IMG/VR virus record: IMGVR_UViG_3300050821_002514
Coordinates: 1 to 50,454 of that record
Strand: one strand, 5' to 3'
Length of the DNA stretch: 50,454 nt
DNA from: a virus
Shown one piece after another: positions 4,765 to 20,837 of this stretch. Within the stretch, counting starts at the first letter, position 1; the number at the start of each line of letters is the position of its first letter. A program made the position numbers and the translations under genes. The notes under the pieces are model-generated. The model made no database searches. It worked only from the letters and a program-made list of their open reading frames with translations, and was not told the origin of the DNA.

Positions 4765-5139
4765 ATGAGTGAACAAGTGCAAGGACTTAACGAAGCGAAA
4801 ACTGTACCGCAACAGCCCACCAGAGAAGCGCAGCTTAAAGATATCGAAGCTATTCGAGATCTATTCGCTAGAGCGCATGACTATATTGCTCAAGCATCTC
4901 ATCCTGGGCATATGGGCATGAAGATAGCCGAAGTGCTAAACTTCTTGGCCTTCCAGCATAATGACTTCAAATTACGCGGGGAAAAGCTATCAAAGCAGAT
5001 TGAAGCGGATAAACAGAATGAATTGAGCAAAGTGGACGTAGCAGCGGCACAACAGGCAGTTGACGCTGTGCTTGTTGAGAAGCCTTCACAGGTGCAGGTA
5101 GCCGATGAGAATGGAGCGGTGGACGCGCCGAAAGCCTAG
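4765..5139 (+). CDS. Putative small terminase or packaging accessory, 124 aa
   Basis: Begins after TCGGGGG with good spacing, and its stop shares one base with the start of the large terminase gene. The protein is helical and charged with an Ala/Gln/Val-rich C-terminal half (likely coiled coil around residues 60-105). No helix-turn-helix is obvious by eye. Position directly before the large terminase is the only argument for a small-subunit role. Confidence 0.6.
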   Translation: MSEQVQGLNEAKTVPQQPTREAQLKDIEAIRDLFARAHDYIAQASHPGHMGMKIAEVLNFLAFQHNDFKLRGEKLSKQIEADKQNELSKVDVAAAQQAVDAVLVEKPSQVQVADENGAVDAPKA

Positions 5140-6617
5140 TGACTGATGCTGAGAAGGCCATTGAAGCATCATGGCAGATTGGGCGGCTATATGTCCATCT
5201 CAATCCTAGCCAACGCAAGATATACGATGCTTTCAAGATAAGTACAGGCAGAAATTCCAAGTTCGTTGTTAATTGTAGCCGCAAGATAGGCAAGAGTGTA
5301 TTGGGTTTATTTCTAGGCGCGGAAACGTGTATAGCAAATAAGAATGCGCTTGTAGCCTTCATTGCCCCTACAGTGGATGATGTGCAAGAGTATGTGAGAC
5401 AGCTCTACGATGTTGTTTTTGCCACTTGTCCTGAGCATTTAAGGCCCAAATTACGTAAAACCCAGTTAGTATTCGGTAATGGCTCAAAGATCCTTTTTCG
5501 AGGGGTAGGAAAGGGCGTAGGTACGTCTTATAACAATCTACGCTCTTTCGCCTTCGATCTTATCATTTTAGATGAAGCTGGCTTCTCAGCTAATTTAGAT
5601 GAGATAGTCGATGGTGCGTTGGTATCAACGCTTATTCCTCGTAATGGCAACATGCTTTTGTTGTCCACGCCCCCCGTCACGCCTGACCACGCGTTTAAGG
5701 CCTATTGCGACCAGGCGGAAATAGACGGGGCCTATATGAAGCTCACCATACGAGATAGTCACTACTCGTTGGAGCGGCAAGAGAAGTTCATCAAAGACCT
5801 TGGGGGCCTCACTTCCCATAAAGTACGCAGGGAGTTCTTTTGTGAGTTTGTCATTGACACCGACTTCCAGCTTTGTCCTGAATGGAAGCCGGAGTATGAA
5901 AGAGAAGTACCAAAGACTGACACTTTCAAACTGTGGTTTAAATATGATGCTCTTGACCAAGGATGGACGGATAACTCTGTCTGCGGCTTTGCCACCGTGG
6001 AGTGGGCCCCTGGGAAGCCCTCTGTTATTGTGCTTAGAGATGAAGTGTGTATGAAGAGTCCCGAACAAACTACCGATCTATTGGCAGAGCGAATTATAGC
6101 CAAAGAAAAAGAAGTGTTTGGGGATATGGAAGTAAAAAAGCGGATTGCGGATAATAATACCCCCTCTTTGCTTCAAGACTTTAATCTGCGGCATCATTTA
6201 TATTTCTCTCCGGTAGAAAGTAAGACCTACCTAGATGTGATGGTGTCAGATGTGCGAGAGCTAGTGAAAGAAGGGCGCGTGATTGTAAGCCCTAAATGTG
6301 TGCAGACGCTTGGATGTTTAAAGAATGGTGTCTGGACAAAGACAAAGGGCGGGGCAAGAGGTAAAGAGTTCTCGCGGTCAAAGACATATGGTCACTATGA
6401 CGGCTTCGCCATGCTTATGTATCTTGTGCGAAGTGTCGATCTTATCACTAATCCATTACCGCCTTCTTTTCGGCACAATGAAGAGAACACATTCATTCCA
6501 AAGAAACTACTGGAAGGCGATAAAGCACAAACAGCAGAAATTGTAAGTGCGGGTCTTGATGAAGCTATGCGGCAAACATTTAATTACACAGAACACGATA
6601 CACAAGGATATGAGTAA
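5139..6617 (+). CDS. terL: Terminase large subunit, 492 aa
   Basis: The packaging motor ATPase and nuclease. The N-terminal ATPase shows a Walker A-like CSRKIGKS (residues 46-53), a Walker B DLIILDEA (140-147) and a coupling-type 'LLLSTPP' (about 173-179). The C-terminal nuclease region shows 'KYDALDQGWTD' (268-278), with a first acidic residue near D270, and the late acidic motif 'HYDGFAMLMY'. Length is normal for the family. It starts at GTG, coupled to the preceding gene. It would act with the portal at the capsid vertex to pump and cut DNA. Confidence 0.93.
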   Translation: MTDAEKAIEASWQIGRLYVHLNPSQRKIYDAFKISTGRNSKFVVNCSRKIGKSVLGLFLGAETCIANKNALVAFIAPTVDDVQEYVRQLYDVVFATCPEHLRPKLRKTQLVFGNGSKILFRGVGKGVGTSYNNLRSFAFDLIILDEAGFSANLDEIVDGALVSTLIPRNGNMLLLSTPPVTPDHAFKAYCDQAEIDGAYMKLTIRDSHYSLERQEKFIKDLGGLTSHKVRREFFCEFVIDTDFQLCPEWKPEYEREVPKTDTFKLWFKYDALDQGWTDNSVCGFATVEWAPGKPSVIVLRDEVCMKSPEQTTDLLAERIIAKEKEVFGDMEVKKRIADNNTPSLLQDFNLRHHLYFSPVESKTYLDVMVSDVRELVKEGRVIVSPKCVQTLGCLKNGVWTKTKGGARGKEFSRSKTYGHYDGFAMLMYLVRSVDLITNPLPPSFRHNEENTFIPKKLLEGDKAQTAEIVSAGLDEAMRQTFNYTEHDTQGYE

Positions 6618-6768
6618 TCCATATTGTGAAAAAGTAAAAAAAGGCGACCACACAGCGGAAGATTTCGCCGCATTTTTACACCATTTAGATGGATGCAAGG
6701 ATTGTTGCCGTAGAATCTATAGTCGCATCGTAATCGAATTTGCGCAAAAAGAAAACGGAGATAAATAA
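6610..6768 (+). CDS. Small Cys/His protein between terminase and portal, 52 aa
   Basis: The start ATG lies within the end of the terminase gene and the stop overlaps the portal start (TAATG). The motif H-H-L-D-G-C-K-D-C-C matches the H-x3-C-x2-C pattern of anti-sigma-type zinc domains (zf-HC2). The family link is pattern-based only. It may be a packaging accessory or a small regulator. Confidence 0.6.
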   Translation: MSNPYCEKVKKGDHTAEDFAAFLHHLDGCKDCCRRIYSRIVIEFAQKENGDK

Positions 6769-8858
6769 TGGCATCAGGGTCTATGAACAGCAAGACTTTT
6801 GGCGGCGAACCCGATCAATATTTTGCCACTTTACCCGTGGAAGATCTTCTTGGCGAATGCGATAGAAGGACCAGGGATTATGAAGATTATGCGCTTCGTA
6901 CTGGTAAACTCACCACATGGCGAACAAATTGGGAAATGTGGATGCGTTCGGAGATGAAAATCGGTATTCGTTTCGGTGGCGATAGAGGGCAATATAAACT
7001 TATTGAATCGAATATATACCGCTCGATTGTTACTGGATTAATCAGCACAATCGCAAATCAACGACCCTCTTTTCAGCCCGAAGCAATCAATGACGATCAT
7101 AAGAGTATGTCTCAAGACATTATCTTCGATTCTGTTTCGAATTATTATTTAAAAGTTAAGCATATGGAAGATGCCTATAAGATGGCTCTTACATATGGCC
7201 TTGTGACAGGTGAAGGATGGATGTTTGAGAAGTGGAACGCAGATATCGGCCAAATAGTAGACGTAACAACTGATCCTTCTGGCAAGCAGATTCCCATAAA
7301 AGAAGGTGATTTTCAGTACGCAGTATTAGGACCGATGGATGTTATTCGGGATTATACCAGAATGGATGTAGATAATGACTGGTATATTATTCGTGAATAT
7401 CTTAATAAATGGGACCTTATAGCTCAGCGACCAGATCTTATGGATGAGTTGAAGGGCTATAGTATGCCTACCACTCTTCAAAGGTTTAGATTTGGTCATA
7501 TAGTTGATGCCCAAACATCAAATTCAGATTTAATTCCTGTTTATACATTCGTGCATCGTAAAACTGCGGCTTGTCCTGAAGGTCGGATTACTCAATACGT
7601 GGATGCTGATACGTGGATACTTGATACTGCGCTTCCATATGATGAGCTTCCGCTCTACCCGATGATGCCAGATCAGACGCTTTTTAACAATTTTGGTAGT
7701 ACTGTGATGACTTCTTTAGTTAAGTTGCAGTATGCCTATGATAAGACTCTTAGCGTTATCGTAACCAATCAACAAGCCTTTGCAATCACCAACATTGTCA
7801 TTGACGAGTCTACTCAGACGAAACCAGAACAGGTGATAGAGGGCTTGAATTTTATCAAGACTAACATGAAGAATGGTGTGCCGGTGGGACTAGAACTATG
7901 CAAGACCCCTGCTGAAGTGTTTAAGTTCTTGGATCTTTTAGAATCCCAGATGGAAAAACTTTCTGGACTTCCGTCTATTTTGCGGGGCCAGCCGCCCACT
8001 GGGGTGGAATCGGGTACAGCTATGGCATTCTTACAGGCCCAGGCCCTTGTTTTCAATAGTCCCATCCAACAGGCTTATATTTCATTTCTTGAGCGATCAG
8101 CGACCGGATTGTTCAATATGCTTAAGTCATTCGCCAATACAAAGCGTATGATTACAATAGCGGGAGCCAGCAAATCACCCTATATGGGCGAATTCTCAGG
8201 AGCAGATCTTTCTAATATCTCTCGCGTAATTGTATCTGCTGGAAATCCTGCTACAAGATCCGAAGCTGGAAAGTTACAGATAGCACAAGATCTTATGGCT
8301 AAGGGTCTTATAAAAGATGCTAATCAATATTTTGAGGTTCTTGCGACAGGTGAATTAGACCCTATGACAGAAGGGCCTGAAGCGGAAAACATGCTTATCA
8401 TTAAAGAGAATGAGCAACTTCGGCGTGGGATTCCCCAAATTGCTGCTCCCTGGGATAATCATGCTAATCACATTCCTCAGCATTTTGTTATTATGATGGA
8501 CCCCACTCTTCGGCAGAAACAAAATGATCCTGTCTTTGCCACTACTCTTCAGCATATTATGTCTCATGCAGGATTCTTATTCCCAGGAATTCAAACGCCT
8601 ACTGATCCTCGTTTAATGGCTTTAATGGGCAATAATGTCCAAGGATTGCCGCCGCCCCCACCAGAACAACCAACACCAGGACCAGTGGCTAATCCTTTAC
8701 CAGCAGGAGCCGCATCCGTAACAAATGCGACACCTCCCTTACTTCAGGCAAGAGCGGGTTTAAAACCGCCCCACGCACCAATTTTACCTAGAGCAACACC
8801 GCCAATCGTAACTCAAGCCGCTAGTCAAATGGGAAATGCAGCCCCGCCCAAAAAATAA
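6768..8858 (+). CDS. Portal protein, 696 aa
   Basis: A large portal-type protein for the DNA entry vertex. Features typical of podovirus portals are an aromatic/charged N-terminal stem region (DYALRTGKLTTWRTNWEMW), the 'GLVTGEGWMFEKW' segment, a long central helical region and a 'SGLPSILRGQPPTGVESGTAMAFLQ' stretch. The last 80 residues are Pro/Ala-rich and probably disordered. It lies two genes after the large terminase. The call rests on size, context and family-like sequence. Confidence 0.88.
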   Translation: MASGSMNSKTFGGEPDQYFATLPVEDLLGECDRRTRDYEDYALRTGKLTTWRTNWEMWMRSEMKIGIRFGGDRGQYKLIESNIYRSIVTGLISTIANQRPSFQPEAINDDHKSMSQDIIFDSVSNYYLKVKHMEDAYKMALTYGLVTGEGWMFEKWNADIGQIVDVTTDPSGKQIPIKEGDFQYAVLGPMDVIRDYTRMDVDNDWYIIREYLNKWDLIAQRPDLMDELKGYSMPTTLQRFRFGHIVDAQTSNSDLIPVYTFVHRKTAACPEGRITQYVDADTWILDTALPYDELPLYPMMPDQTLFNNFGSTVMTSLVKLQYAYDKTLSVIVTNQQAFAITNIVIDESTQTKPEQVIEGLNFIKTNMKNGVPVGLELCKTPAEVFKFLDLLESQMEKLSGLPSILRGQPPTGVESGTAMAFLQAQALVFNSPIQQAYISFLERSATGLFNMLKSFANTKRMITIAGASKSPYMGEFSGADLSNISRVIVSAGNPATRSEAGKLQIAQDLMAKGLIKDANQYFEVLATGELDPMTEGPEAENMLIIKENEQLRRGIPQIAAPWDNHANHIPQHFVIMMDPTLRQKQNDPVFATTLQHIMSHAGFLFPGIQTPTDPRLMALMGNNVQGLPPPPPEQPTPGPVANPLPAGAASVTNATPPLLQARAGLKPPHAPILPRATPPIVTQAASQMGNAAPPKK

Positions 8859-19703: not shown

Positions 19704-20837
19704 ATGTCACAGCATGTGGTTACAATTGTTACACCAGATAGTTGCGCTATGGTGACGGATCAGTTACATCCCGAACCGAATGCTTCATCTTTAGATTCTG
19801 TTGATCGACTTGCTCGTTATGTTGATGGAATTAGTAATGGGGCATTTTATTTTGCTTCTATTACTGAGCAACTTTGCGGAGCTTCCGCTTCAGGCACCAT
19901 CACATTGTCTGGTTTTACCGCTGCGAATACAGTCACTATTGATGGGATTACTTTTAGTCCAGTAGGTGGTGTGTTAGGAGCAGCTTCTACTTTCGGTGTG
20001 TTGGCTGGAACAGCTATTACAAACACTGGTTTCACTACGATTGCTGGTGATGTTGGTATTCAACCGGCGGGGAGTATTTCTGGTTTTCCGCCTGGGACTT
20101 ATACTGGTACACTTCATAATGGTGATGCGGTTTCATTACAGGCGCATAATGATGCGACAAATGCTGTAGCGGCTCTTGATGCTGTTACTCCTATTGTTGA
20201 TATTTCATCTACTGATCTTGGTGGAGCAACCTTTACACCTGGTCATTATGATGCCAGTTCATCCGGTACATGGTCGGCGGGGAATCTTACATTGAATGGA
20301 GCAGGAACGTATATTTTTACGTTTGATACTTCCCTCACAATGCCAGCTAGTGCCAATGTAGTTCTTACAGGTGGAGCGACCGCAAATAATGTTTACTTTA
20401 TTACGGGTACCACCTTTACATTTGGGGCCAATGATACAGTTAATGGTAATATTCTTGCCGGTACTTCTGTTACATTTGCTTCTCTCAGCGTTCTTAATGG
20501 TAGAGCTTTGACATATGGTCCCTCAGCGACAACTGTAACATTTCCTAGTGCGGCCACAGTCACGGTTCCCGCCAGTAGCCCTAACCCCAATTCATTTGTT
20601 GTGGGGGCGACGGATACTATTACGGCGGCTAATATAGCGGCGGCTGTTGATGCTTCAACTAATTCGATGATTCAGTATGTTATTACTGCGACTTCTTTAG
20701 GTCCAGTAATCACTTTCACAAGTCTTGTTCCTGGTCCCGTGGGCAATCTTGAAACGATTGCTATTTCTGGTGGTGGTACGGCTTCTGGTCCTAATCTTAC
20801 GGGTGGATCATTTGGTAGTACGACAATTCTAAAGTAA
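19704..20837 (+). CDS. Virion protein with inserted DUF3494 ice-binding-type domain, 377 aa
   Basis: Two nested units. Residues 1-88 and 292-377 together form a beta domain found in proteins encoded after phage capsid genes (SGTITLSGFTAANTVTIDGITF ... TDTITAANIAAAVDAS ... GPVGNLETIAISGGG ... LTGGS). Residues about 91-289 are inserted in the loop between those parts and match the DUF3494 ice-binding family: 'TFGVLAGTAITNTGFTTIAGDVG', 'GSISGFPPGTYTG', the helix 'AVSLQAHNDATNAVAALDA', 'DLGGATFTPGHYD', then solenoid turns to 'NGNILAGTSVTFASLSVLNGRAL'. The DUF3494 fold is a beta solenoid with an alongside helix. Both matches are by eye. Position suggests a head decoration or surface protein. Confidence 0.85.
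   Translation: MSQHVVTIVTPDSCAMVTDQLHPEPNASSLDSVDRLARYVDGISNGAFYFASITEQLCGASASGTITLSGFTAANTVTIDGITFSPVGGVLGAASTFGVLAGTAITNTGFTTIAGDVGIQPAGSISGFPPGTYTGTLHNGDAVSLQAHNDATNAVAALDAVTPIVDISSTDLGGATFTPGHYDASSSGTWSAGNLTLNGAGTYIFTFDTSLTMPASANVVLTGGATANNVYFITGTTFTFGANDTVNGNILAGTSVTFASLSVLNGRALTYGPSATTVTFPSAATVTVPASSPNPNSFVVGATDTITAANIAAAVDASTNSMIQYVITATSLGPVITFTSLVPGPVGNLETIAISGGGTASGPNLTGGSFGSTTILK

Follow-up and report, generated by a model that had tools for sequence, protein, structure and literature searches.

Analysis of the window (the whole stretch of 50,454 nucleotides) confirmed that the 377-residue product of the gene next to the probable major capsid gene contains a complete DUF3494 fold, which is inserted into a loop of a small phage β domain. 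The most likely explanation is that virions display this solenoid as a module that binds ice or is at least adhesive. In the specific form that we favor, at a probability of roughly 0.6, the product is a small virion protein, probably located on the head, whose DUF3494 solenoid would display an ice-binding face, with virions adsorbing to ice. The features behind this reading were computed directly. They are the domain with its predicted fold, the fact that it is inserted and optional, its spread across virion-type proteins, its threonine face and purifying selection.

The DUF3494 solenoid and its gene context

The PF11999 (Ice_binding) profile matched residues 99–270 of the protein with E = 2.3e-35 (score 122.6 bits; cut-off 28.7). 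An earlier note on this DNA had named the ORF, its coordinates and the DUF3494 identity of the insert, with a profile search as the proposed check, and the result was in agreement on each of these points. The insert limits given there (residues 88 and 292) were very nearly right, as a profile made from the phage copies spans residues 90–288 (Table 1). Sequence matches of the protein in the PDB were DUF3494/ice-binding (antifreeze) entries, the best of which was 6eio (E = 5.9e-30), and the solenoid is 37–39% identical to the best structures. With the NCBIfam model NF045625 (IBP_CFB), the protein scored 50.4 bits, under the 400-bit requirement of that model.

In the AlphaFold model, residues 90–290 were predicted with pLDDT values above 93 (94–98 in blocks) and form the solenoid that the earlier note had expected, with a single long helix (residues 142–159) and short strands. 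A Foldseek search against the PDB returned 31 matches at E ≤ 0.001, every one an ice-binding or antifreeze structure; the top match was AnpIBP (7bwx; TM 0.88, rmsd 2.0), and EfcIBP gave a TM of 0.83. The window domain thus shares its profile with the DUF3494 type 1 ice-binding proteins (EfcIBP, 6EIO; AnpIBP, 7BWX; FfIBP, 4NU2), and its model shares with them a triangular β-solenoid with one long helix and a b-face that is co-located by alignment. These three are free or secreted cell proteins, whereas the window solenoid sits within a virion-type protein of a phage. The regions flanking the solenoid were poorly modeled (pLDDT 33–66) because few sequences cover them.

The upstream neighbor matches phrog_14242 (major head protein; E = 2.9e-4) and, under the family cut-off, the NCBIfam podovirus major capsid model NF033394 (E = 4e-6), which lends some support to its assignment as the probable major capsid gene and to the position beside the capsid gene claimed earlier. 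The core-encoding gene directly follows this probable capsid gene in the window and in its relatives, as is the case for Hoc-like head decoration proteins. In the model of the probable capsid protein, a central segment (residues about 140–230) is confidently predicted and the rest of the chain is of low confidence; this segment is possibly an inserted domain. No PHROGs family matched the 377-residue protein or the core-only protein of one relative (L092), and by such sequence searches the 60-residue core belongs to no known family. A search of 50,697 records of named phages with the window protein and a consensus solenoid also gave no matches. The window protein has no signal peptide, which together with its gene position and conservation points to a probable location in the virion.

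Table 1. Positions of the gene, its parts and neighboring genes in the window
Feature	Residues	Position	Strand	Basis or remark
Terminase large subunit		5139..6617	+	phrog_2, E = 1.4e-23
Portal protein		6768..8858	+	phrog_156, E = 5.3e-9
Probable major capsid protein	428 aa	18271..19557	+	phrog_14242, NF033394
Whole gene: core, split phage β domain and inserted DUF3494 solenoid	377 aa	19704..20837	+	
N-terminal core, conserved	1–60	19704..19883	+	entire protein in eight relatives
Small phage β domain, part one	61–88	19884..19967	+	
DUF3494/PF11999 solenoid	90–288	19971..20567	+	profile from phage copies
b-face coil 1, TAITNT	103–108	20010..20027	+	alignment to AnpIBP
b-face coil 2, SGTWSA	187–192	20262..20279	+	alignment to AnpIBP; sole coil without T-x-x-T
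b-face coil 3, TSLTMP	209–214	20328..20345	+	alignment to AnpIBP
b-face coil 4, TTFTFG	236–241	20409..20426	+	alignment to AnpIBP
b-face coil 5, TSVTFA	254–259	20463..20480	+	alignment to AnpIBP
b-face coil 6, TTVTFP	276–281	20529..20546	+	alignment to AnpIBP
Small phage β domain, part two	291–377	20574..20834	+	
Next gene downstream	167 aa	20857..21360	+	related gene follows core gene in relatives read

Occurrence in close relatives and in other viruses

The gene downstream of the capsid gene was compared among phages whose probable capsid proteins are 77–97% identical; two more relative contigs stop short of the core gene and lie outside this series. In eight relatives (L081, L082, L083, L086, L089, L090, L092 and L093), a core-only gene of 58–72 residues is present. 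In two others, L080 and L087, the core is followed by an uninterrupted small β domain (177 residues in total), and a search for further relatives with this form found none besides these two. A match of this uninterrupted domain to phrog_165 (tail sheath; residues 52–163 in L080 and 37–164 in L087) spans the insertion point. In the window and in L002, the small β domain is split by DUF3494, and in L032 DUF3494 is located after the small β domain, which stays whole. When the window flanks are joined they behave as one domain, as had been claimed: residues 291–377 align to the second half of L080/L087 (z 7–8 relative to shuffled sequences), and the first 60 residues align to L080 (z 32). The same architecture in L002, a separate contig with a protein of 82% identity, rules out an assembly chimera. 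The carrier in L049 is more distantly related, and its corresponding loop holds a DUF3494 domain of another clade. Since core-only, core-plus-domain and DUF3494-bearing forms occur in near-identical phages, the sequences indicate that the conserved core carries the solenoid as an optional module, which is accepted at two sites and from two solenoid clades. In L173 and L174, more distant phages whose capsid protein is related, no recognizable core protein follows the capsid gene. In some close relatives, ORFs of 115–149 residues resemble HNH endonucleases by eye; they adjoin the capsid gene in L082 and L086 and lie further downstream, among the tail genes, in L093.

A scan of viral sequences with six phage copies yielded 108 stretches, from which 75 loci were retained. 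PF11999 was present, in 1–5 copies each, in 54 of 54 IMG/VR records tested, all chosen because they already matched (by relatedness). Flank similarity divided the carriers into approximately 17 groups, a rough figure, as the largest group (46) lumps clearly different proteins. Among the carriers are a tail sheath (L063; PF17482, E = 2e-10; phrog_2839, E = 2e-27), a Baseplate_J protein (L048; PF04865, E = 3.5e-16) and a tail-fiber protein (L077; phrog_1980). In a crude hydropathy test, a signal-peptide-like N-terminus was absent in 71 of 74 viral DUF3494 ORFs; the same test applied to 89 cellular ORFs found it absent in 53 and present in 36. The only matches at E ≤ 0.001 in the BFVD viral structure library were Hyperionvirus proteins, which have a viral DUF3494 fold like that of the window but belong to a giant virus.

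Several copies can occur together. The 142-kb phage contig L003 (IMGVR_UViG_3300005542_000007) contains five DUF3494 domains in four ORFs (55930–56445, 77656–78171, 91084–92433 and 94004–94534), one 804-residue protein holding two of them. A 976-residue ORF in L016/L017 contains two tandem small β domains, of the type that is split in the window, followed by DUF3494; this protein is sheath-like by eye and gave no sheath profile matches.

The threonine face and its conservation

The ice-binding residues of AnpIBP are known, including by mutations (PMC7277481), and b-face positions of the window were mapped from them through sequence alignment rather than from model coordinates. The T-x-x-T pattern is present in five of the six coils, a count reached by none of 20,000 shuffles, and is limited to the mapped b-face register; one coil contains a tryptophan. 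In FfIBP, T-A/G-X-T/N repeats have been reported (PMC7277481). The window solenoid belongs to a phage-only clade of 28 domains with support of 100. On average, T-x-x-T occurs in 4.36 of six coils across the 28 distinct domains of this clade, whereas the averages are 0.57 for 95 cellular domains and 0.68 for 53 further viral ones; as the clade domains are related, this comparison amounts to one evolutionary event rather than 28. The window b-face is likewise more regular than that of the sampled cellular relatives. Clade support was still 100 after removal of the b-face columns, and the clade is therefore not an artifact of the face. At the three outward b-face columns, T, S, A, G and N account for 94% of residues in the clade, and outward positions are conserved above random columns (p = 0.012). 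The alignment thus gives the window solenoid a predicted flat b-face of small and hydroxyl residues, of the threonine-rich ice-binding type; the earlier note had named a flat face. The dN/dS between the window and L002 is ∼0.05, which indicates strong purifying selection.

Proposed virion display and ice binding, and other readings

Ice-binding proteins are known from cells, and they limit the size of ice crystals or anchor cells on ice. In the mechanism that we propose for the phage, the gene product would be a small protein of the virion that probably attaches to the head, with the 60-residue N-terminal core as its invariant part. The lineage would have gained the small β domain and, within one of its loops, the DUF3494 solenoid. 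The solenoid would project from the particle and expose a b-face with two ranks of threonines, one pair per coil, like known ice-binding sites. With many solenoids per particle, the virion would adsorb to ice or to the ice–water film; ice-bound virions would be kept where freezing concentrates hosts and let go on thaw. We infer display on the particle from the gene position, the fusion to virion-type proteins and the missing secretion signal, and ice binding from the fold and the face. A wider proposal, to which we give about even odds, is that a phage-specific DUF3494 clade with an idealized two-rank threonine face has moved among head, sheath, baseplate and fiber proteins, giving tailed-phage virions that bind ice and are transported as well as concentrated by freeze–thaw.

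The overall interpretation of the earlier note, a solenoid displayed on heads, is thus partly supported: the fold, the loop insertion, the position beside the probable capsid gene, the face and the lack of a secretion signal agree with it, and the insert-free relatives and the recurrence in other virion proteins strengthen it. The benefits it named, attachment to ice, concentration in brine and protection during freezing, may apply; attachment is more plausible than freeze protection because phages were no better protected against freezing by a polymer that inhibits ice recrystallization (PMC8672357).

DUF3494 also occurs in Kitasatospora, Streptomyces and Thermoplasmata, organisms without a link to cold, so the fold alone is no proof of ice binding. 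Many loci come from Streptomyces and Kitasatospora, and others (L116, L130, L136, L155 and L157) from archaeal (Thermoplasmata, Euryarchaeota) or actinobacterial genomes, in all cases with titles that carry no cold link. Because the family is common in such organisms, including those of soil, and because a search of papers by IMG identifier found no sample metadata on the contigs, such as sampling temperature, the main rival is a virion-displayed module that adheres to something other than ice, its threonine face weakly binding a cell-surface polymer, a mineral or an organic particle in the fashion of Ig-like domains. The module is indeed optional and shuffled among capsid-side, sheath, baseplate and fiber proteins, as Ig-like domains are (PMC9230969), but the b-face has grown more, not less, similar to a known ice-binding site in the phage clade, and every significant structural match is an ice-binding protein; we regard this reading as doubtful. 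Optional and exchangeable add-ons displayed on heads, sheaths and fibers, as proposed for the solenoid, are known in Hoc and in Ig-like decoration and sheath domains (PMC10385173, PMC9230969), and the extra domains of tail sheaths are mostly Ig-like (PMC9230969). Those add-ons have Ig-like folds and are proposed carbohydrate binders, whereas the window module is a solenoid and a proposed ice binder.

A stiff solenoid that merely lengthens or cements a virion protein is a less probable reading still: a rigid β-solenoid in loops could serve as a spacer, and the carrier accepts it at two sites, but purifying selection is strong, the exposed face is conserved, and ten close relatives have the same carrier without it. 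Viral PF11999 genes from Arctic surface-water viromes were interpreted as auxiliary genes with a possible host-protecting role (PMC11515562), and one antifreeze gene was reported from Southern Ocean viruses (PMC8407431). Like the Arctic genes, the window domain is viral-encoded, but insertion into a virion protein is not described in the passages of the Arctic report consulted. A product of this kind, which would shield infected cells or their lysate against ice, is very improbable here and was set aside, given the fusion to virion-module genes and the missing signal peptides; the window product is fused, is encoded in the structural module and lacks a signal peptide, which sets it apart from stand-alone or secreted auxiliary ice-binding products.

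Viral PF11999 genes have thus been known as host-helping auxiliary genes, and what appears to be new, judged by sequence, is PF11999 as a putative virion module, for which a literature search (with subscription papers and preprints beyond its reach) found no report. Dozens of other uncultured phages carry it as an optional addition to proteins of the tail and head regions, and some virions may stick to ice. Near-identical relatives that lack the insert make this idea directly testable. If it is true, the clade would provide very regular ice-binding sites that are ready to be studied, and an ice-binding virus particle would be a new means for phages to position themselves in freezing habitats.
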